Positions 9,513-19,955 of a stretch of DNA of 20,103 bases are shown here, in pieces. The position numbers and the translations under genes were made by a program. The DNA comes from a virus. Each line of letters starts with the position of its first letter. Positions within the stretch are counted from its first letter, which is position 1. The notes under the pieces are model-generated. The model did no database searches. It saw only the letters and a list, made by a program, of their open reading frames with translations, and was not told the origin of the DNA. Location of the stretch: the IMG/VR virus record IMGVR_UViG_3300042294_002351, positions 1-20,103 of that record; one strand, given 5' to 3'.

Positions 9513-11109
9513 CACGGCCTCCCTGTGGTTTTCGGGTGCCGTAGTATTGTGACGAGGTATCTATCAGTCCCCCTAGTAATTTTTCTGTATCAGCCCGGTG
9601 TCGGGCGAGGATGGCGGGGTACTCGGGGCTGTTAGGATCGGCTGGCTGGCCGTTTTGGTCATATACCCCGGCGTCCGCGAACGGCGTGGTAACAAGCGCT
9701 GTCGGGTCATCCGAGTACGGCTTGTTCAGGGAGTAAATACCGGCTGCGATGCCTGTTTCAAAGGGCTGATCCTCCACGAAATTGCGGGCTACAGCGCTGC
9801 CGTATGCCTTGGCCCCCATCTTCCCGGCCGAGCGAAGTAACCCACCCCCGAGGGTCGCAGCCGTCAACGGGTCGAAGTAATACTTCGGGGCGTTGACAGC
9901 CGTGTTCTCCAGCGGCGTGGGGTAGGAGTACCGGCTGAACTTCGCCCCCGAGGTGGGCAAACCGGCGTCCCCGAGATTGTCCATCGCGTCGTTCCATGCC
10001 CGCTGGTACATCGGCTTGTTTGCCATGTACTGGTTTTCCTGCCTGTTGAGGTATGTGTCCAACTGGCGGCGGGTCTTCGCGGCGGTCAGCGAGTCCATGC
10101 CCTCCGGTAAAACGGGCACCTCCCGGCGCAAGTTGAGGGCCAGAGTTCGGATCGAATCGCTGCCCGGAAGCCCGAGGACAGGCGTGCCCGAGAGGTACTG
10201 CGGCCCGAGAAAACTCCCGACGTAGGTGTTGAGGTTGGCGTTGTCCATCTCGCCCTGCCGCTGGGCTCCAACGCCGGTTGTCCACGAGAACTGCGGGTAG
10301 TAGCCGCCGAACAGCGAATCCTTGTACGTCCCGGCCTTCTTCTGCTCGTCCGCGAGTTTGTCCCAATACAAAGCCTCTTGAGCCCGGGCCTGAAGCGGAT
10401 TGAGCATCGACTGAATGTTGCGGGAGTAGGCCAGACTGCGCGTATCGGAGCCGGGATCGCCCGCAACTGCGCGAGCCCCGGGGTTCAGAACGCTGCCGAG
10501 TACGGAGTGCAACGCAGAAGTTGGCGAGGCAAAGTCGGGCTTGAACTCGGGCTCGTCCCGCATCGCCGTGAGCATGTTGTAGGCGCGGGTGGCGAGAAGG
10601 TTTCTGTCCATGTTCTCGCTGGTGACGTACCGCATGTCCTGCGGAAGATTGCCGCGAGCGCGAGCGTTTCGCTGCTCAAGCGTCTGGCCCGGGAACAACT
10701 CGTCGCTTCCGCCCACTCCTTGGCTGCGGAGCGTGTCGAGCGTGTCTTGCAGAGCCGAGTCAAGTTCGCCGCCGCTTACCAACTTGCCAAGCCCCGTCTC
10801 TTTGAGAGCCCTTTCGGAACTCCCCCAATCCGCCTCCTCTGACCCTACGCTGGCCTTGTGCTGCGCAAGGTAGTAGTCGGCCGGTGAGATCATCTGTTCG
10901 CCAACCCGGATCGAGGGCGTTTCCCACACCGCACGAGCCCGGTCTTCGTACTCCCGCATCTCGGGGAAGTCGCGGGGGTACGCTGTCAGCGGGGCGGCGA
11001 TCCCGGCCAGTTCTTGGAACGGTCGCGGCAGGGGATAGCGCGGGACTTCCTGCATCTTCTTCAGATACGCGATCAAACCGGGATCGGAACCGGAGTAGAT
11101 GTCTTCCAT
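9481..11109 (-). CDS. Unrecognised 542-residue virion-module protein
   Basis: A large hydrophilic protein of unknown family placed just before the scaffold. It opens MEDIYSGSDPGLIAYLKK, has a Pro-rich patch, then mostly helical segments rich in Arg, Glu and Ala, a Tyr/Gly/Asn-rich central part (GGYYPQFSWTTG near 275), and a stretch near 415-445 with Ala/Gly small-residue helices (LTAATLGGGLLRSAGKMG) that could touch membrane. The C-terminus is basic and Gly/Arg-rich. No Walker, protease or lysozyme motif is visible. The ATG shares its A with the upstream stop (TGATG) and AAGGG lies 6 nt upstream. Possible roles are an internal or ejection protein, or a head-assembly protein; neither is shown by the sequence. 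Confidence 0.75.
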   Translation of the reverse strand: MEDIYSGSDPGLIAYLKKMQEVPRYPLPRPFQELAGIAAPLTAYPRDFPEMREYEDRARAVWETPSIRVGEQMISPADYYLAQHKASVGSEEADWGSSERALKETGLGKLVSGGELDSALQDTLDTLRSQGVGGSDELFPGQTLEQRNARARGNLPQDMRYVTSENMDRNLLATRAYNMLTAMRDEPEFKPDFASPTSALHSVLGSVLNPGARAVAGDPGSDTRSLAYSRNIQSMLNPLQARAQEALYWDKLADEQKKAGTYKDSLFGGYYPQFSWTTGVGAQRQGEMDNANLNTYVGSFLGPQYLSGTPVLGLPGSDSIRTLALNLRREVPVLPEGMDSLTAAKTRRQLDTYLNRQENQYMANKPMYQRAWNDAMDNLGDAGLPTSGAKFSRYSYPTPLENTAVNAPKYYFDPLTAATLGGGLLRSAGKMGAKAYGSAVARNFVEDQPFETGIAAGIYSLNKPYSDDPTALVTTPFADAGVYDQNGQPADPNSPEYPAILARHRADTEKLLGGLIDTSSQYYGTRKPQGGRDGGRGSNSRK

Positions 11110-11519
11110 CAGTTGCCCTTACTTCGCCAGTGCTTTTGCCACTTGAGCAATGCCATCCGGTTGGCTTTCTTCTGCCGCCACCAATCGAGGATCATCACGA
11201 TGACCTCGTACAAAACTGCTTGGAGAATGATCGTCCAGATGAAGCCGAACTGCTGCTCCCCATACGCCAGATGGAGATGCCGCTTAACGTCGGCCATGAG
11301 GGACTTGACCACCGCCGCTTCTTGGGCATGGCCGGAATCAGCGAGAGCAAACCCGTCATCGGGCCATTCCTGAACCACGACCGCAACGCAGTCGAGAACC
11401 TTCTCGCGCCCCACCAACCACTTCCGCATGGGCAACTTCGCCCACACCGCCTGTCGGAACTTGTCGTAGTCTTCGTCGGGTGGCATGTCACTCGGTTGCC
11501 TATCCATCAACTGGATCAC
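11109..11519 (-). CDS. Small protein with one membrane segment
   Basis: A 136-residue protein if started at GTG 11519, or 132 from ATG 11507. AAGGA sits about 6 nt before the GTG and GGTGAT 7 nt before the ATG, so the start is not decided. The soluble N-terminal part is mixed; a hydrophobic stretch FGFIWTIILQAVLYEVIVMI (about 92-111) is a likely membrane helix, followed by a Trp/Lys/Arg-rich basic tail (DWWRQKKANRMALLKWQKHW), which suggests an N-out/C-in or peripheral orientation. It overlaps the next gene as TGATG. It could be a lysis or entry accessory protein, but I see no class-defining feature. Confidence 0.7.
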   Translation of the reverse strand: MIQLMDRQPSDMPPDEDYDKFRQAVWAKLPMRKWLVGREKVLDCVAVVVQEWPDDGFALADSGHAQEAAVVKSLMADVKRHLHLAYGEQQFGFIWTIILQAVLYEVIVMILDWWRQKKANRMALLKWQKHWRSKGN

Positions 11520-14367: not shown

Positions 14368-14391
14368 GTTGTAATGGGATGTCAAGATCGG
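14368..14391 (-). repeat. Direct repeat copy 2 (3' side of the nuclease gene)
   Basis: A 24-nt unit that matches the copy at 14877-14900 at 22 of 24 positions. On the leftward strand it contains CGATCTTGACATCCC and TACAAC. It spans the stop codon of the 170-aa gene and ends about 48 nt before the start of the 52-residue secreted peptide. Confidence 0.75.
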
Positions 14392-14894
14392 GCCGTGAAC
14401 TCCTTGGCCCCGGCCATGTCGATGTAAGCGTTCGCCCGGACAGCCTCGCCGCCGTTGATCGTGGCCTGCGTCGTGGTTCTATCGACCCGGAACTTGGCAA
14501 CGAACAGCCCTTCCGCGTCGGCCAACTGCTTAGTTAACAAGCACTCGTCTGGAATAAGGTAGAGAAACCCGACGAGGGGGACTCTCAACTGTCGGCCCAC
14601 ACCGCTGGCCCGCACGAGTTTATCCATCGTGACCAGCCACTCGTCCTTGAACTCCGCGAGTTGCACCCGGGACATATCCCGGCTCTTTTGCTCCACGATG
14701 GCGCGGACGGTCAGCCCGGGGTCTACCAACACACCGTCTATGGAACTGTCAGAGTTCTCGGGGGTGACGATGTACTGCCAGCCCGGGTTGTGGGAACACC
14801 AAATCTCGGCACACCGCTGGGCGTACTCCAGCGATTTCTGCCCCCGAGGAGTGTTAATGTCGAGGCTCACGCCCCTGTTGTACGGGGATGTCAA
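14382..14894 (-). CDS. Putative PD-(D/E)XK-like nuclease
   Basis: A protein of up to 170 residues. The part SIDGVLVDPGLTVRAIVEQKSRD (about 51-73, quoted here only as D...EQK) has an acidic residue followed, after two strands, by E-Q-K, the layout of a PD-(D/E)XK nuclease core; a helix precedes it (SLEYAQRCAEIWCSH) and helix/strand units follow. Restriction-like or resolvase-like phage nucleases fit, but this motif is short and only suggestive. The start is unclear: TTG 14894 has no ribosome site and lies inside a repeat; GTG 14870 is the better start on protein grounds (SLDINTPRGQ). The frame stays open upstream into a capsid-gene relic. Direct repeats flank the gene, which may mark it as an inserted cassette. 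Confidence 0.6.
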   Translation of the reverse strand: MTSPYNRGVSLDINTPRGQKSLEYAQRCAEIWCSHNPGWQYIVTPENSDSSIDGVLVDPGLTVRAIVEQKSRDMSRVQLAEFKDEWLVTMDKLVRASGVGRQLRVPLVGFLYLIPDECLLTKQLADAEGLFVAKFRVDRTTTQATINGGEAVRANAYIDMAGAKEFTARS

Positions 14895-15187: not shown

Positions 15188-15592
15188 CTACTTCGCGGGC
15201 TTCACGCTCCAGTAGCCCGTAGCGCGGATACGCTCACGGTCGGCGGCGTATCCCTCCGGGCCGGTATCCTGAAGATACGCGAGCGTATCGTCTTCGTCGG
15301 CCCATGCCACGACCCCATAGGTGCCGAAATGCCCCCCCGTGGTCAGAAGCCCGTTAGCCCCGACATAGAGCGACACTACCTTCCCGGTCGGCAGGATACG
15401 CTCGGCCTGATACCGGGCCGGGCGCTCGATGGCGGTACCATCCTTCTTCAAGGTCTTTACCGGCTTGGGATGGAAACCGGGCTTCTTCTCGCTGCGCTCC
15501 TTTTCGGCCTTGAGCGCGGCCAGTTCTGCCCGCAGTTGGGCGATGAGCGCGTTTTCGTCTTCGTTGGAACGGTCGGAATCAATGCGAGCCAT
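15188..15592 (-). CDS. Hypothetical 134-residue protein with coiled-coil start
   Basis: The N-terminal third is a charged helix (NALIAQLRAELAALKAEKERSEKK, about 15-38, a likely short coiled coil), followed by a Lys/Pro linker and a C-terminal beta-rich part with VVSLYVGANGLLTTG and GTYGVVAWADEDD. No motif is recognised. AGAGGG lies about 10 nt before the ATG. Leader element copy A is 52 nt upstream, so this gene probably forms its own transcription unit. It is followed by a strong hairpin. Confidence 0.75.
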   Translation of the reverse strand: MARIDSDRSNEDENALIAQLRAELAALKAEKERSEKKPGFHPKPVKTLKKDGTAIERPARYQAERILPTGKVVSLYVGANGLLTTGGHFGTYGVVAWADEDDTLAYLQDTGPEGYAADRERIRATGYWSVKPAK

Positions 15593-15643: not shown

Positions 15644-15688
15644 GTTAGCGGGGCTCTGCCCGCCACAAGCCCGTTTGGCAGATAACCC
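15644..15688 (-). promoter_or_regulatory. Leader element, copy A
   Basis: Upstream of the 134-aa gene and on its strand. The core reads GGTTATCTGCCAAAC (13 of 15 bases of the consensus GGTTCGCTGCCAAAC), followed by a GC-rich part with GGGCT and AGCCC arms. Over its full 45 nt it matches copy B at 40 positions. It lies 52 nt before the start codon. Confidence 0.75.
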
Positions 15689-15949
15689 TCCCAACTATGT
15701 CGGAGGGGCTCGCCGTGACGGGATGGACGCTGGCCCCAACCGCGACACCTATGACCCGTGTGAATCAGAGGGTTGGGTTGGGGCGTGGAAAGAAACGCCG
15801 GGAGGTATCGAACATCCCCGGTACAGAGCCAACACGGTGTCCTAGGAGCGCGTTGGGTTATACCGTTCCAATGTGGGCCTATGGCCTACGCGGCGCTTGC
15901 AATCGCCATTTGGTGACGTAGGGAACGGCTTCGGCGTTGTGCGGTTGGG
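15689..15949. other. Intergenic region without a supported gene
   Basis: These 261 bases contain no frame with a ribosome site and protein-like composition. They hold GGGTTGGGTTGGGG (15770-15783), a 14-mer that recurs at 17117-17130, and, on the leftward strand, an 8-bp arm pair (CCAACGCG with CGTGTTGG) followed by a TTCGATA loop with a 4-of-5-bp stem. The latter recalls a tRNA T-arm, but no full cloverleaf could be drawn. Confidence 0.4.
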
Positions 15950-16117
15950 CTAGTAGCCCATGGCCTTGGCATCGTCTCGCAGACTGTCCAGCGCGGTGTA
16001 TTCCGCAAGTTGGTCGATTTCCGCTTCCGTCATGCCGAACTCTCTTGCGACAAGGCACTCGTCGCAATCGCAGGAACATGGGTCGCAACCGTCGAACGTG
16101 CAATCGCTGATGGTCAT
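15950..16117 (-). CDS. 55-residue Cys-rich protein
   Basis: A small acidic protein from ATG 16117 (GGGGGA six bases upstream). The first half carries six cysteines: C6, C11, C14, C16, C18 and C21, in a tight CDPCSCDCDEC cluster that would bind zinc or another metal; the second half is an acidic helix (MTEAEIDQLAEYTALDSL). The start overlaps the upstream stop as ATGA, so it is coupled to the 65-aa gene. Frames open further upstream to a TTG at 16135 but that start has no support. Family not recognised. Confidence 0.7.
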   Translation of the reverse strand: MTISDCTFDGCDPCSCDCDECLVAREFGMTEAEIDQLAEYTALDSLRDDAKAMGY

Positions 16118-16311
16118 TGGTTGTCCCCCTTGCAACCCTGATCCTGCGGGACCGCCAACTTCAGCACGAGGTTGGCGAGTTTGGCGCGTCTCTTGTCCGA
16201 CATGACGCGAAACTCGGTCAGCGTCGGAACTCTATTCAAACCGCCGAGCGATTGGCGGTTCAGGCTACGGCTCAACATGTCATGGGCACGGGACAGTGGG
16301 ATGAAAATCAT
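16114..16311 (-). CDS. 65-residue basic hypothetical protein
   Basis: Starts at ATG 16311 with GGAG seven bases upstream and ends in an ATGA overlap with the Cys-rich gene. The protein is basic and helical in the middle (DKRRAKLANLVLKLAV), with a single Cys near the end. No motif. It is the first gene downstream of leader element copy B, and the short frame running through that leader ends in ATGA exactly on this start codon. Confidence 0.68.
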   Translation of the reverse strand: MIFIPLSRAHDMLSRSLNRQSLGGLNRVPTLTEFRVMSDKRRAKLANLVLKLAVPQDQGCKGDNQ

Positions 16312-16340
16312 CGTCTTTCTCCGGTTGGGGAAGGGAATGT

Positions 16341-16385
16341 GTTATCGGGGCTTTGCCCGCCGCAAGCCCGTTTGGCAGCGAACCC
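16341..16385 (-). promoter_or_regulatory. Leader element, copy B
   Basis: Carries the exact core GGTTCGCTGCCAAAC, followed by GC-rich arms (CGGGCTTG and CAAAGCCCCG) that can pair with a bulge. It lies 29 nt upstream of the 65-aa gene, on the same strand, and matches copy A at 40 of 45 bases. Confidence 0.85.
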
Positions 16386-16465
16386 GGCCAACCCGAGATC
16401 GGTGCCGGATGTACCGTCCGTGGTACACCCATGCACCGGATCGCGGTTGAGCAAGGGGTTGGGGT

Positions 16466-16978
16466 TCACGAGTGGAACGTGAACTTCGCCAGTTCCTTCT
16501 CGGTTTGCGGCCAGAAGATGGCGCAAATGAAGTACCGGTCGGTGATAACCGCCGTGTTGGGCCTAGTCTTCGTGTAGGACGCCCCGATCTCCGGTTGGCT
16601 GCCGTTGCGACCGGGTTGGCAGTGGATCGTCACGTTGCCGAATCGGTTGGCCCACATGTTCCACTCAGCCAGATAGCCAATGGCGTTCTGGAAGGCGGTG
16701 TGGCCGTGGTATTCGGCCATGGTGTCATCGAATCCCTCGTCCTTGATGATCGTGATGGTGCGCTCCTGACGGGGCGACTTGGCCTTCACGGGTTCCAACT
16801 GCTCGATGGCCTTCGAGCCGTACAACCCCGAATTAACAGCGTCACCGGCACACTCGGCACACATCGGCGTTCCGGTCTGATCTTCCATGTCCAAGCGGTA
16901 CATGATCCAGACGGCGGGCTGCGGGCATGTGCCCTTGCAGGAAGGGCACCCCGGATCGCGACATTCACACATTTGCAT
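16466..16978 (-). CDS. 170-residue protein with N-terminal zinc clusters
   Basis: The N-terminal 40 residues hold two Cys groups, CECRDPGCPSCKGTC and, after a spacer, CAEC, which would make one or two zinc-binding knuckles. The rest is mixed alpha/beta (TITIIKDEGFDDTMAEYHG; IGYLAEWNMWANRFGN; VITDRYFICAIFW) without a known catalytic motif. I chose ATG 16978 because AGAGGA lies 7 nt upstream; ATG 16984 is in frame and makes an ATGA overlap with the leader frame of copy C. The open frame goes on upstream to 17623, but that part runs antisense to supported rightward genes and through the leader element, so it is rejected. A DNA- or RNA-binding role is likely from the zinc pattern; the family is not recognised. 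Confidence 0.75.
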   Translation of the reverse strand: MQMCECRDPGCPSCKGTCPQPAVWIMYRLDMEDQTGTPMCAECAGDAVNSGLYGSKAIEQLEPVKAKSPRQERTITIIKDEGFDDTMAEYHGHTAFQNAIGYLAEWNMWANRFGNVTIHCQPGRNGSQPEIGASYTKTRPNTAVITDRYFICAIFWPQTEKELAKFTFHS

Positions 16979-17000
16979 GGTCATATCCTCTCGTGATGGT

Positions 17001-17050
17001 GGCTTATCCGGGGCGTGTCCCCGGCAAAGCCCCGTTTGGCAGCGAACGCC
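17001..17050 (-). promoter_or_regulatory. Leader element, copy C
   Basis: Core CGTTCGCTGCCAAAC (14 of 15) on the leftward strand, followed by a hairpin with CCGGGG and CCCCGG arms. It lies 22 nt before the 170-aa gene. With copy D it forms the head-to-head pair of the divergent region. Confidence 0.8.
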
Positions 17051-17116
17051 ACCATGCGCGGGATACGCGAAAAGCCGTAACGCGCTACACGCAACGCTGT
17101 GTGCTACGTCGTGCGT

Positions 17117-17130
17117 GGGTTGGGTTGGGG
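17117..17130 (+). repeat. 14-nt G-rich direct repeat
   Basis: GGGTTGGGTTGGGG here is identical to 15770-15783. It lies between leader copies C and D, ten bases before copy D. Four G-runs make a G-quadruplex possible; only two-layer stacking is guaranteed because one run is shared. Confidence 0.45.
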
Positions 17131-17140
17131 TGCATGTCGC

Positions 17141-17191
17141 ATGGCAGGGTTCGCTGCCAAACCCGCCCCGGGGGCGACCAGTTCCGCCCCG
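17141..17191 (+). promoter_or_regulatory. Leader element, copy D
   Basis: Begins ATGGCAGGGTTCGCTGCCAAA and contains the exact 15-nt core at 17148-17162. It is followed by a hairpin (17169-17191, CGGGGGCG with CGCCCCG, one bulge). It lies 28 nt upstream of the 71-aa gene. Read as codons it is in frame with that gene and has no stop between. Confidence 0.85.
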
Positions 17192-17218
17192 TTCCCAGCA
17201 ACCCCAAGGGCCAACCCA

Positions 17219-17434
17219 ATGAGCAGATTCGCAAGTCTGACGAAGCGCCAGAAGAAGAACTTCGACGCTCTGGTGGAGCATACCGTGCAGTCTCACTGTC
17301 GCGGTATGCAAATCCCCATTCTCGACATCCCCAAGGTGTTTGAAGCGGCCCGTGTCGCGTTCGATGCCAACCATAGCGTCGTGGAGGCCATCGTGTCGAA
17401 GTACCGCGAGTTGTCGCAAGGCGGTGCGGCATGA
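17219..17434 (+). CDS. 71-residue hypothetical protein
   Basis: First gene of the five-gene rightward set. From ATG 17219 (AAGGG eight bases upstream) it encodes a basic, helical protein: MSRFASLTKRQKKNFDALVE, then helices rich in Val, Ala and Glu (FEAARVAFDANHSVVEAIVSKY). No known motif; a small DNA-binding or dimerising protein is possible. A start at ATG 17141 would add 26 Pro/Ala-rich residues encoded by the leader element; I judge this less likely because the element recurs before other genes. It overlaps the next gene as ATGA. Confidence 0.7.
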   Translation: MSRFASLTKRQKKNFDALVEHTVQSHCRGMQIPILDIPKVFEAARVAFDANHSVVEAIVSKYRELSQGGAA

Positions 17435-17673
17435 GTTGGAGGTGCCATACATGTGGAGCCCCGTCCGCCAACAACGAAGACCACAACTGGGATGATGTGA
17501 CGGATGAGCAGTGGGAAGTGATGTACCACGCGCAAGAGTTGCTGGCCGCGTTGCGTCAGTGCGCTGCGCGTCTCTCAGAGTGGGTGGATTCTGGCTCGCG
17601 TGATACCCGCGATCTTGTAGCAATCAGGGACGCCGAGAAGGCAATCGCCAAGGCAGAAGGGAGGGGTGAGTGA
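17431..17673 (+). CDS. 80-residue protein with N-terminal CxxC
   Basis: Begins MSWRCHTCGAP, a half zinc-ribbon (C5-x2-C8), followed by an acidic linker and a long helix (WEVMYHAQELLAALRQCAARLSEW), then a second helix rich in Ala, Lys and Glu. Only one CxxC is present, so a metal site would need another partner, such as a dimer. It starts in an ATGA overlap and ends in TGATG with the next gene. Family unknown. Confidence 0.7.
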   Translation: MSWRCHTCGAPSANNEDHNWDDVTDEQWEVMYHAQELLAALRQCAARLSEWVDSGSRDTRDLVAIRDAEKAIAKAEGRGE

Positions 17674-17930
17674 TGAGCGAGCAGGGTTCTTATCTGGGCG
17701 CGGGCTGGTTCACACTCCCCATTCCCAAGGACACCATCATCGAACTGATGCCCAAGTTCGTCGTAACCGTGTGTTGTCTGGAGAACGGCAATATGCCGTG
17801 GATTTGGGGGCCATTTGTCAGCCAAGACGAGGCCAACGATTGGATCGAACAGCATCGCCAGCGTATCGAATGTCTGCACTGGGTAGACATGAACTCGCTT
17901 GGGGTGCAGGAACTTTCTAGGGAGTGGTGA
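17673..17930 (+). CDS. 85-residue hypothetical protein
   Basis: ATG 17673 shares its A with the upstream stop, and GGAGGGG lies six bases before it. The protein is a small alpha/beta fold: PKDTIIELMPKFVVTVCCLENG, a Pro/Trp strand (MPWIWGPFVSQDEAN) and a helix DWIEQHRQRIE. The pattern of 'strand - WGPF - DEA..WI' looks like a short sequence-conserved phage accessory domain but I cannot name it. Two adjacent Cys are present. Confidence 0.7.
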   Translation: MSEQGSYLGAGWFTLPIPKDTIIELMPKFVVTVCCLENGNMPWIWGPFVSQDEANDWIEQHRQRIECLHWVDMNSLGVQELSREW

Positions 17931-17932
17931 GC

Positions 17933-18199
17933 ATGAACAAGCCGAGCATCCTTAACCCGGAAGGACTAGACCCGGGAGTTGCCCGCTTGCAGAGCGAGTA
18001 CGGCAACCGGTATACGCTGGCAACTCTCAGGGTGTATCTGACTAAAACCGAACTAACCGAGTTTTACGGAGAGCGTTGCCCGGACTACGAACCGCTTTGC
18101 GCATGCTGCAAGGCGTGGATTGAGTGGCAGGAAACGGGCATGGTGACGTTCACCATCGGCAGGAAGTTGGCCCTCTTTGCTCTGCGGGAGGACGATTGA
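17933..18199 (+). CDS. 88-residue hypothetical protein
   Basis: I chose ATG 17933 because GGGAG lies eight bases upstream; two GTG codons at 17924 and 17927 are in frame but too near it. The protein has an N-terminal linker (NPEGLDPGVARLQSEYG), helical parts with TLRVYLTKTELTEFYGER, a CACCKAW cluster and a C-terminal 'MVTFTIGRKLALFALRE' strand-helix. The CxCC cluster may bind metal. It overlaps the next gene by TTGA. Confidence 0.68.
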   Translation: MNKPSILNPEGLDPGVARLQSEYGNRYTLATLRVYLTKTELTEFYGERCPDYEPLCACCKAWIEWQETGMVTFTIGRKLALFALREDD

Positions 18200-18405
18200 A
18201 CTGCATCAACTGTTGTCGGGAACTCTCCCCGGATAGGGCCGAGTTCTTGCGAGAGACGGGGCGCGCTTTGGTGTGCCTGTCGTGTTCCCGTGAGTCATCG
18301 AGGTTGGTGCTGATGGAGTATGCCCACAAGACTGCGGGCTACCCCGTCATTGTCCCTCGTGGCGATGAAGACAAGGCGCGTCGAGCGTATCGACGGGCCA
18401 GATAG
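18196..18405 (+). CDS. 69-residue zinc-ribbon-like protein, TTG start
   Basis: Begins at TTG 18196 in a TTGA overlap with the upstream stop, with GGAGG four bases before it. The protein has CINCC near the N-terminus and CLSC at about residue 31, a two-knuckle pattern of a zinc ribbon, followed by a helix and a basic end (RGDEDKARRAYRRAR). The frame is also open upstream, but that part lies over the previous gene. A DNA- or RNA-binding role is likely from the zinc pattern and basic tail. It is the last gene of the five. Confidence 0.68.
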   Translation: MNCINCCRELSPDRAEFLRETGRALVCLSCSRESSRLVLMEYAHKTAGYPVIVPRGDEDKARRAYRRAR

Positions 18406-18408
18406 TCA

Positions 18409-18459
18409 TTGGCAGGGTTCGCTGCCAAACCGGCTCCCGGCGGGCTTTCCGCCGATTTT
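18409..18459 (+). promoter_or_regulatory. Leader element, copy E, with terminator-like hairpin
   Basis: TTGGCAGGGTTCGCTGCCAAA with the exact core at 18416-18430, four bases after the previous stop. It is followed by CGGCGG-GCTTT-CCGCCG (18438-18454) and ATTTT, which looks like an attenuator. It lies 30 nt before the 120-aa gene on the same strand. Confidence 0.85.
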
Positions 18460-18488
18460 CCCACTTCAAGTACGAAAGGACGGTGTTT

Positions 18489-18851
18489 GTGAACGCTGAA
18501 CAAGTGATTTCCGCGCTCCGCGAATTGGCGGGCCAGACCGAAGCGAAGACCAAGACCAAGGAGCAGAAGATCGCCAAGGCGGCGGCGTCTGTCCCCGAGG
18601 TCAAGTTGGCGGCGACCCCCAAGGCGGTTGATCCCCCAACGGACGATGAGGAGCAACCTGAGAACGAACTCCCGGGTCTTGTGCCCGTGGTTGTTCTCGA
18701 TGACGGCGACACGTTCAGCAATCTGGCCGGTGCGCGGATTGCGTTCGTGAAGCCGGGTGCCGACGAACTGGGCGATGGTGCCTACGAGAACGGCATCCCG
18801 ATTAGCGGACTGCTGGAACTCTACGAGTGCATCCGCAAGGTGACGCGGTAG
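18489..18851 (+). CDS. 120-residue hypothetical protein
   Basis: GTG 18489 is preferred because AAAGGA lies eight bases upstream; a GTG at 18483 is too near that site. The N-terminal 35 residues form a charged helix (EQVISALRELAGQTEAKTK), then an acidic, Pro-rich linker (about 50-70, DPPTDDEEQPENE), then a small beta-rich domain (LVPVVVLDDGDTFSNLAG, then IAFVKPGADELGDG) and a C-terminal helix. No motif. The layout of a helix, acidic linker and small domain resembles a regulatory or adaptor protein. It ends 26 nt before a strong terminator, so it is the last gene of that transcript. Confidence 0.72.
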   Translation: MNAEQVISALRELAGQTEAKTKTKEQKIAKAAASVPEVKLAATPKAVDPPTDDEEQPENELPGLVPVVVLDDGDTFSNLAGARIAFVKPGADELGDGAYENGIPISGLLELYECIRKVTR

Positions 18852-18877
18852 TTCATACTGCAAACCTGTTCACCCAT

Positions 18878-18924
18878 ACCGGCGCAAGTGGTTCACGGGG
18901 AGCCACTTGCGCCGGTTTTCTTTT
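18878..18924 (+). terminator. Strong intrinsic terminator
   Basis: A perfect 14-bp stem (ACCGGCGCAAGTGG with CCACTTGCGCCGGT) and an 11-nt loop, followed by TTTTCTTTT. This is the clearest terminator in the window. It closes the rightward unit ending in the 120-aa gene. Confidence 0.92.
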
Positions 18925-18926
18925 AC

Positions 18927-18949
18927 CCCCGATCTTGACCGGCTCTTAC
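18927..18949 (+). promoter_or_regulatory. Copy of the CGATCTTGAC-N6-TTAC motif
   Basis: CCCCGATCTTGAC then six bases then TTAC, placed right after the terminator and 27 nt before the 301-aa gene. Both direct repeats around the nuclease gene have CGATCTTGAC-N6-(T/G)TAC on their coding strand. TTGAC resembles a -35 core but no good -10 is found downstream, so it is listed only as a candidate. Confidence 0.3.
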
Positions 18950-18976
18950 CTTCGTTAGCAAAGGAGATTCTTTCCC

Positions 18977-19882
18977 ATGGCTACGGTTTCTATTCCCGTG
19001 ACAGGCAGGCAGTTCGCCTTCACGGGTTGCATCAGCCTGTGGCGGTCTACCCGTGTTCCACGGGCTACCGTCGAGGCTTCGCTGTCCAAGGTGGGCATCA
19101 ACTCGATCCCGCCCATCGACCACTACGCCGCGTTGCTGGAAACCGGCAACCAAGTGGTCGAGAAGTGCGCCGTGAAGTCCCCCGGCGTTCCCATCAAGTC
19201 CGACTCGCTGTCTCGCAGTGCTGTCGGCGTCGAGTTCTTCGCGACCACCAAGGGGGACAAGAAGAACCAGCGTGAGTTCCTGTTCTCCATCGGCGTGGAC
19301 AAGAACAATCAGGCGTTCGTCAAGGACATTGGCAGCCACCCCAACGTGGTTGCCGTGTTGGGTCATCCCCAAGCCGACACGACGTTGGACACGCTGTATC
19401 AGTCCAACTTGCTGTACATGCCAGCCCGCGATGTCACGGAGGCTCTGACCGCCGTTGTCATGGCGAATCGGGCGGTGCGGCTGGCCGATGGCAAGGGCGT
19501 GTTCTTCGTCCCCGAGTCCGGTGTTCCGACCGTGGATGCCGTGTTTCAGGACATGAACAACGCCGGTTGCCGCTGCATGATGTGGGCCAACGACCTGTCT
19601 GACCCCAACGTGCAGTCGCAAGTTCTGGAGGCGACCAACGAGCAACTCGTGACTGATCTCGGCGTGATGCAGCAAGAGATTCAGGCCATCCTGTCCGACC
19701 CCGAGAAGCGGCCACGCATCAACGGGCTCACGACCAAGATGCAGGCGCTCGCCAAGCACGCCGACCTTCTCGATTACTACAAGCGGATGTTCAACGGCGG
19801 TCTTGATACCGCCGAGAAGTCCCTTGCAGTCACGTTCGATCTGCTGTCGGAACTCCAGATTCGGTATCGCGGCGACAAGTAG
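18977..19882 (+). CDS. Conserved-looking 301-residue hypothetical phage protein
   Basis: From ATG 18977 with AAAGGAGAT eight bases upstream. The fold looks alpha/beta throughout: strand-rich N-terminal half (SAVGVEFFATTKGDKKNQ; REFLFSIGVDKNNQAFVKDIG), then helices (LYMPARDVTEALTAVVMANRA; GVMQQEIQAILSDPEKRP) and a long C-terminal helical part (LDYYKRMFNGGLDTAEKSLAVTF). It has few Cys and no visible catalytic motif. It reads like a well-conserved cytoplasmic phage protein, possibly from a domain of unknown function seen in giant and environmental phages, but I cannot confirm the family. It begins a new transcription unit after the terminator and is the largest gene of the right arm. Confidence 0.82.
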   Translation: MATVSIPVTGRQFAFTGCISLWRSTRVPRATVEASLSKVGINSIPPIDHYAALLETGNQVVEKCAVKSPGVPIKSDSLSRSAVGVEFFATTKGDKKNQREFLFSIGVDKNNQAFVKDIGSHPNVVAVLGHPQADTTLDTLYQSNLLYMPARDVTEALTAVVMANRAVRLADGKGVFFVPESGVPTVDAVFQDMNNAGCRCMMWANDLSDPNVQSQVLEATNEQLVTDLGVMQQEIQAILSDPEKRPRINGLTTKMQALAKHADLLDYYKRMFNGGLDTAEKSLAVTFDLLSELQIRYRGDK

Positions 19883-19896
19883 TCGCGAGTACCGAG

Positions 19897-19955
19897 ATGG
19901 CTGGGTTCGCTGCCAAACGGCTGGCAGGGGGCGGCGGCGCGTTGCCGTCGCCCCC
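19897..19955 (+). promoter_or_regulatory. Leader element, copy F
   Basis: ATGGCTGGGTTCGCTGCCAAA with the exact core at 19904-19918, then a 12-bp stem (GGGGGCGGCGGC with GCCGTCGCCCCC, one G-T pair, 5-nt loop) at 19927-19955. It lies 36 nt before the last gene on the same strand. The tract after the stem has some T (TTCTTTC) but not a full terminator run. Confidence 0.85.

Follow-up and report, generated by a model that had tools for sequence, protein, structure and literature searches.

We analysed a 20.1 kb viral fragment (20,103 nt, here called the window) from an unclassified podovirus-like phage. The leftward genes of the window include those for the portal, an endonuclease VII, the capsid and a single-strand-binding protein, and short rightward early genes follow from about 17.1 kb. 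A search of a phage collection with the portal and terminase proteins returned 0 matches at 1e-5. With a looser limit, only matches of 22-28% were obtained for the terminase, chiefly to marine Pelagibacter and Roseobacter podoviruses and to Arthrobacter and Microbacterium phages. The gene at 14382-14894 contains a motif resembling PD-(D/E)XK nucleases; of the relatives described below, G005 has a counterpart (66%) and G003 has none at the matching place. ARAGORN called a tRNA-Ala(GGC) at 11229-11303 on the minus strand, within the open reading frame 11109-11519; the call is doubtful.

The core sequence GGTTCGCTGCCAAAC is present in six copies within 15.67-19.92 kb, four exact, one with one mismatch and one with two (Table 1), which is the count that an earlier note on this DNA had given. 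When up to three mismatches were allowed, the window contained eight matches against 0.82 expected, and 0 of 100 shuffles reached eight; the two additional matches, with three mismatches each, look like chance. All six copies are intergenic and directed at the following gene on its strand, and their placement on the coding strand, also claimed earlier, was confirmed. The positions previously assigned to the rightward cores were correct, but those of the three leftward cores were off by one, and the spacing of 22-52 nt to the gene had to be replaced by 55-80 nt, measured from the end of the core to the start codon. The 20.1 kb fragment holds no further real copy of the core, including in the 15 kb of structural genes left of 15673, and none of the copies is located within a gene or misoriented.

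Table 1. The six elements of the window, with strand, component parts and the gene that follows each (positions in nt; distance is from core end to start codon)
Element	Extent	Strand	Upstream block	Core	Hairpin	Following gene	Distance (nt)
A	15646..15694	-	15690-15694	15673-15687, 2 mismatches	about 15646-15665	15188-15592	80
B	16346..16391	-	16387-16391	16370-16384, exact	weak, in 16346-16369	16114-16311	58
C	17008..17055	-	17051-17055	17034-17048, 1 mismatch	about 17008-17024	16466-16978	55
D	17141..17190	+	17141-17145	17148-17162, exact	about 17171-17190	17219-17434	56
E	18409..18454	+	18409-18413	18416-18430, exact	about 18438-18454	18489-18851	58
F	19897..19955	+	19897-19901	19904-19918, exact	strong, 19927-19955	from 19992, cut by window end	73

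Across IMG/VR, the exact core had 29 matches, all of them single-copy and chance-like, and no contig was multi-copy. A degenerate pattern of the motif was multi-copy in the contig G003 and otherwise gave single matches only. No Rfam match above the gathering score was found in the window. Two other sequence features lie near the elements. Tracts of the GGGTTGGGTTGGGG type are located upstream of A, B and C/D (15767-15783, 16456-16468 and 17116-17130) and are also present in G003, and a long imperfect inverted repeat (GATCCGGTGCATGGGTGTACC...GGTACATCCGGCACCGATC) at 16390-16445, upstream of element B, is mostly retained there.

Alignment of the window and G003 copies revealed a full motif of about 22 bp, which reads WTGGC-n2-GGTTC-GCT-GCCAAAC in the window. 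The motif includes a further conserved block, [AT]TGG with a C next in most copies, which begins 7 or 8 nt ahead of the core. The earlier note had missed this WTGGC block. Downstream of the core, a hairpin was found in all elements except B, where it is weak. The stem-loop starts 7-10 nt past the core, and the hairpin sequence differs at most copies. For stems at this offset, the summed length was 43 in the window compared with 18.9 (sd 4.1) in shuffled sequences, and 32 in G003 compared with 13.4 (sd 3.6), with 0 of 1000 shuffles reaching the observed value in either case; the offset range was picked after the leaders had been inspected, and the margin over the shuffles is wide. In folding energy, C and F were the sole elements to exceed the shuffles, most hairpins not differing from shuffled GC-rich sequence, and the difference in hairpin energy between leaders with and without an element was not significant (p = 0.065). 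The GC-rich inverted repeat proposed to follow each copy is thereby supported, in the form of a structure locked in position whose sequence varies at most copies. At site A, the two arms covary between the relatives, with GCGGG/CCCGC in the window and GCGGCA/TGCCGT in G003; the earlier note had named a lack of such covariation as grounds for rejection.

A hairpin inside the core, GGCAG/CTGCC, was also considered as a conserved structure and rejected. As described before, it is perfect in D and E, but it is perfect only there: it is mispaired in A, B and F, and it is broken in G003, where CTG is changed to CGG while the upstream CAG is unchanged. The pairing within the core is not conserved, and the argument for RNA-level selection drawn from it does not hold.

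In IMG/VR, three contigs carry an 88% match to the capsid protein of the window. The longest of them, G003 (19,058 bp), spans most of the same region with 86-89% identity and contains five copies orthologous to A-E. All five read GGTTC-CGG-GCCAAAC, one having a mismatch elsewhere. The triplet after GGTTC is changed from GCT to CGG at every site, giving differences at 15 of 15 triplet positions over the five site pairs, whereas only 3 of 60 positions differ in the remaining twelve core columns and 16-21% in the flanks. The contrast between triplet and rest of the core (Fisher p = 4e-13) is indicative, positions within a site not being independent. The flanks have not been homogenised, which makes it improbable that one element was copied over the others. 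The simplest explanation is that all sites are read by one trans-acting factor whose specificity has changed. The switched triplet lies on one side of the motif, and the WTGGC half shows no mirrored counterpart of the change, an argument for recognition with a direction.

More distant relatives were collected by a scan with a terminase alignment, and all records are fragments. The terminase identity to the window was 78% for G005 (40 kb), 70% for G006 and G017, 60% for G007 and 55-56% for G008-G016. G005 contains five copies built on CCCCGGCGAG, with CATGGCCGAGGCGCCCCGGCGAGnGGTTTTCGG as the longest consensus. Its copies matching A, C and E lie before genes homologous to those of the window (40, 62 and 49% identity), the copy at F lies before an ATPase gene, the start of which matches the window F gene, and the gene after the copy at D matches a window early gene over a short stretch. 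Neither the window nor G005 has an element ahead of the 301-aa-type gene between E and F. In the window, this gene (18977-19882) is separated from the E gene (18489-18851) by a strong terminator-like hairpin with a T run at 18878-18916. In G017, GGGGGCAAGGCTTT is present in four copies, of which three point leftward and one rightward. They are arranged around the divergent junction as in the window, and the genes that follow them have no detected homology to those of the window. G007 has five copies of CCCCTTCGGGG, all leftward. The cores of these more distant relatives are quite different, common to the copies within each genome, and strand-matched. Together with the switch in G003, this pattern is the mark of sites that a single trans-acting factor of changing specificity reads.

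The exact-repeat counts in G005, G017 and G007, made on segments that were selected around the elements, were above those of 100 shuffles in each genome or segment. A motif search on gene leaders separated G000, G003, G005 and G017 from shuffles and did not recover the G007 repeat, and a de novo search in G010, G012 and G008 found no leader motif clearly above shuffles. About 800 prokaryote genomes were searched for integrated relatives, which yielded two distant prophage-like regions with a terminase about 34% identical, from the phylum of a Planctomycetaceae genome and the phylum of a Bryobacterales genome. Their repeated leaders, GTCCGAGTTTTCCGCGCAGC in G768 and TGACCATCTAGGG in G396, are suggestive only; the G768 core is one arm of a hairpin of 7-9 bp.

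These comparisons bear on the four candidates among which the earlier note made no choice, a promoter, an antitermination RNA, a processing site and a mobile palindromic repeat. A mobile repeat, or a replication or packaging site without link to the expression of the next gene, would be in keeping with a short repeat clustered at a divergent region, a possible place for an origin. Such a site would hardly be expected to show strict gene orientation, distances of 55-80 nt to start codons and no copy within genes, to be replaced in concert without homogenised flanks, or to have each relative's own motif at corresponding positions, and we regard this possibility as very improbable. The promoter is now favoured.

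Our tentative reading is that the elements are phage-specific promoters with a 5' hairpin, each placed directly ahead of a transcription unit. In this model, we infer the transcription start at the element, the identity of the factor and the role of the hairpin as follows. A phage-encoded initiation factor, either a phage sigma factor working with the host RNA polymerase or an RNA polymerase yet to be found, would recognise WTGGC-n2-GGTTC-nnn-GCCAAAC. The RNA would start at GCCAAAC or a few bases past it, so that it would begin with or near the position-locked hairpin, which may protect the RNA 5' end, with the ribosome-binding site next. Elements A-C would drive the leftward operons into the structural genes and D-F the rightward early genes, and the three bases after GGTTC would be the specificity block, changing along with the factor.

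The six strand-matched intergenic copies at 55-80 nt ahead of start codons argue for promoters, as do the concerted change from GCT to CGG in G003 and the presence of own strand-matched cores in G005, G017 and G007. Sigma-70-like promoters at the window elements were not found beyond chance. Because element E begins 3 nt past the stop codon of the preceding gene (18403-18405), there is little room for another promoter before it. The location of the switched block on one side fits a directional reader, and T7/T3 promoter specificity likewise lies on three adjacent bases, -12 to -10, which are the main determinants (PMC11617373).

The elements resemble the promoters of single-subunit phage RNA polymerases (T7, T3, SP6, Syn5 and VSW-3) in being contiguous, about 20 bp long, strand-matched and one per transcription unit, and, as in T7 and T3, a few adjacent bases would set the specificity between the close phages represented by the window and G003. 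However, the window motif is GC-rich and shows no match to these promoters beyond the loose TTGG of Syn5 and VSW-3. A T7-like RNA polymerase (PF00940) was absent from all fragments, the records being incomplete, whereas the T7 control was found with E = 1e-109. The replacement of the whole core between moderately related phages, whose capsid proteins are 77% identical, also weighs against promoters of this kind. To our knowledge, such turnover is faster than that of T7-group promoters.

The promoters read by phage sigma factors in phage 7-11 and the phiEco32 group (PMC4331800) are similar to the elements in that they are few, repeated, strand-matched, intergenic and phage-specific. A protein encoded in G010 (L222, 3814-4326) scored above the Pfam cut-off for sigma-70 region 2 and was matched by PHROG sigma families too, and G005 (L217, 7784-8305) encodes a weaker sigma-like match; both count towards the promoter reading. 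The two proteins have no similarity detectable by BLAST. AlphaFold modelled the G005 protein with low confidence (pLDDT 59), and a fold search with the model was uninformative. No sigma-like gene was found in the fragments of the window, G003, G007 or G017, all of which are incomplete. Unlike phage sigma promoters, the elements form one contiguous block of 20-32 nt; the window and G003 alignments show this single block and not -35/-10 blocks 16-18 bp apart. In addition, G010 has a sigma gene, yet its leaders lack such a motif. A sigma-54 promoter (GG-N10-GC, with TGC at -12) was considered as well and rejected: the spacing is 11 or 12 here, and TGC is gone in G003.

The position of the hairpin is best accounted for by a leader that acts in the RNA. 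Core and hairpin in the 5' UTR would be bound by a phage protein and would control antitermination, processing or translation, and the core would switch when its binding protein does. We consider this possible, if doubtful. A stem locked 7-10 nt after the core and the joint change of the arms at site A are consistent with it, as are the ability of the 3' part of the G005 core to pair with the sequence after it and the G768 core serving as a hairpin arm. The terminator-like hairpin after the E gene is not followed by an element, and read-through may be needed there. On the other hand, the conserved sequence in the window lineage sits in the linear core and not in the hairpin, and the folding energies of most hairpins are those of shuffles. 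The lambda nut sites and HK022 put RNAs consist of a linear motif and then a hairpin in the leader. Nut-like sites would have a conserved hairpin loop, whereas the hairpin sequence here varies between copies and matches no Rfam family, and several copies fall in one operon; D, E and F together exceed the need of an antitermination site.

The fast turnover of the core would be best explained if the elements were operators for a repressor, or stoperator-like sites, in a temperate phage, at which one repressor would block transcription on all copies and immunity escape would drive the fast concerted change, in agreement with selection on immunity. Overall, this reading appears unlikely. Stoperators of Cluster A mycobacteriophages are 13-14 bp long, number 20-30 per genome and are spread throughout it; like the elements, they are asymmetric, oriented with transcription and differ in consensus between syntenic relatives, being subcluster-specific (PMC6550527). 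A temperate lifestyle would agree with a tyrosine integrase-like gene in G010, with a serine recombinase and a small HTH protein in G005, the latter weakly matching a transcriptional repressor family, and with the prophage-like appearance of the two distant relatives. The WTGG and CCA halves form an imperfect dyad, but its spacing is off by one base in three G003 copies. Unlike genome-wide stoperators, the elements are 4-6 per fragment at the divergent junction, with 0 copies in 15 kb of structural genes. They are at least 22 bp long, and the locked hairpin after each would have no role in repression. Nor was a sigma-70-like promoter found beside the copies as a target.

Other repeated sites are known from Cluster K phages, in which the SAS has the 13-bp consensus GGGATAGGAGCCC and lies 3-9 nt from the start codon, and the ESAS is a 17-bp inverted repeat that holds putative promoters and varies in consensus by subcluster (PMC3203893, PMC11373665). 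Like these, the elements are repeated, strand-matched and upstream of gene starts outside the structural genes. Unlike them, they lie 55-80 nt from the start codon and have no similarity to GGGATAGGAGCCC.

A further reading, which we judge unlikely, is that this phage family without cultured members has a core-plus-hairpin leader before early and junction genes, with the core rewritten per lineage at all sites, and that a factor of undescribed kind reads it, which could be a leader system that binds RNA or a polymerase not belonging to the T7 group.

Phage promoters and stoperators specific to a species are already known. The unusual aspect here is how cleanly the replacement is recorded, with three bases switched at five sites between close phages and the core fully replaced between more distant ones, positions being kept where orthology was shown. 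The window and G003 isolate the first as a clean case of factor and sites moving together. The family as a whole offers a natural series in which the sites of one presumed regulator switch specificity together while the surrounding genes are still recognisable. The elements are also a starting point for identifying the transcription machinery of a phage group without an isolate and, if they are promoters, a possible source of orthogonal phage promoters. A separate repeat was seen in G008 (L223, 8223-8696), where the 13-mer CACCGTCACCGGC occurs about ten times, as it does in G009, mostly 48-63 bp apart and within one gene.
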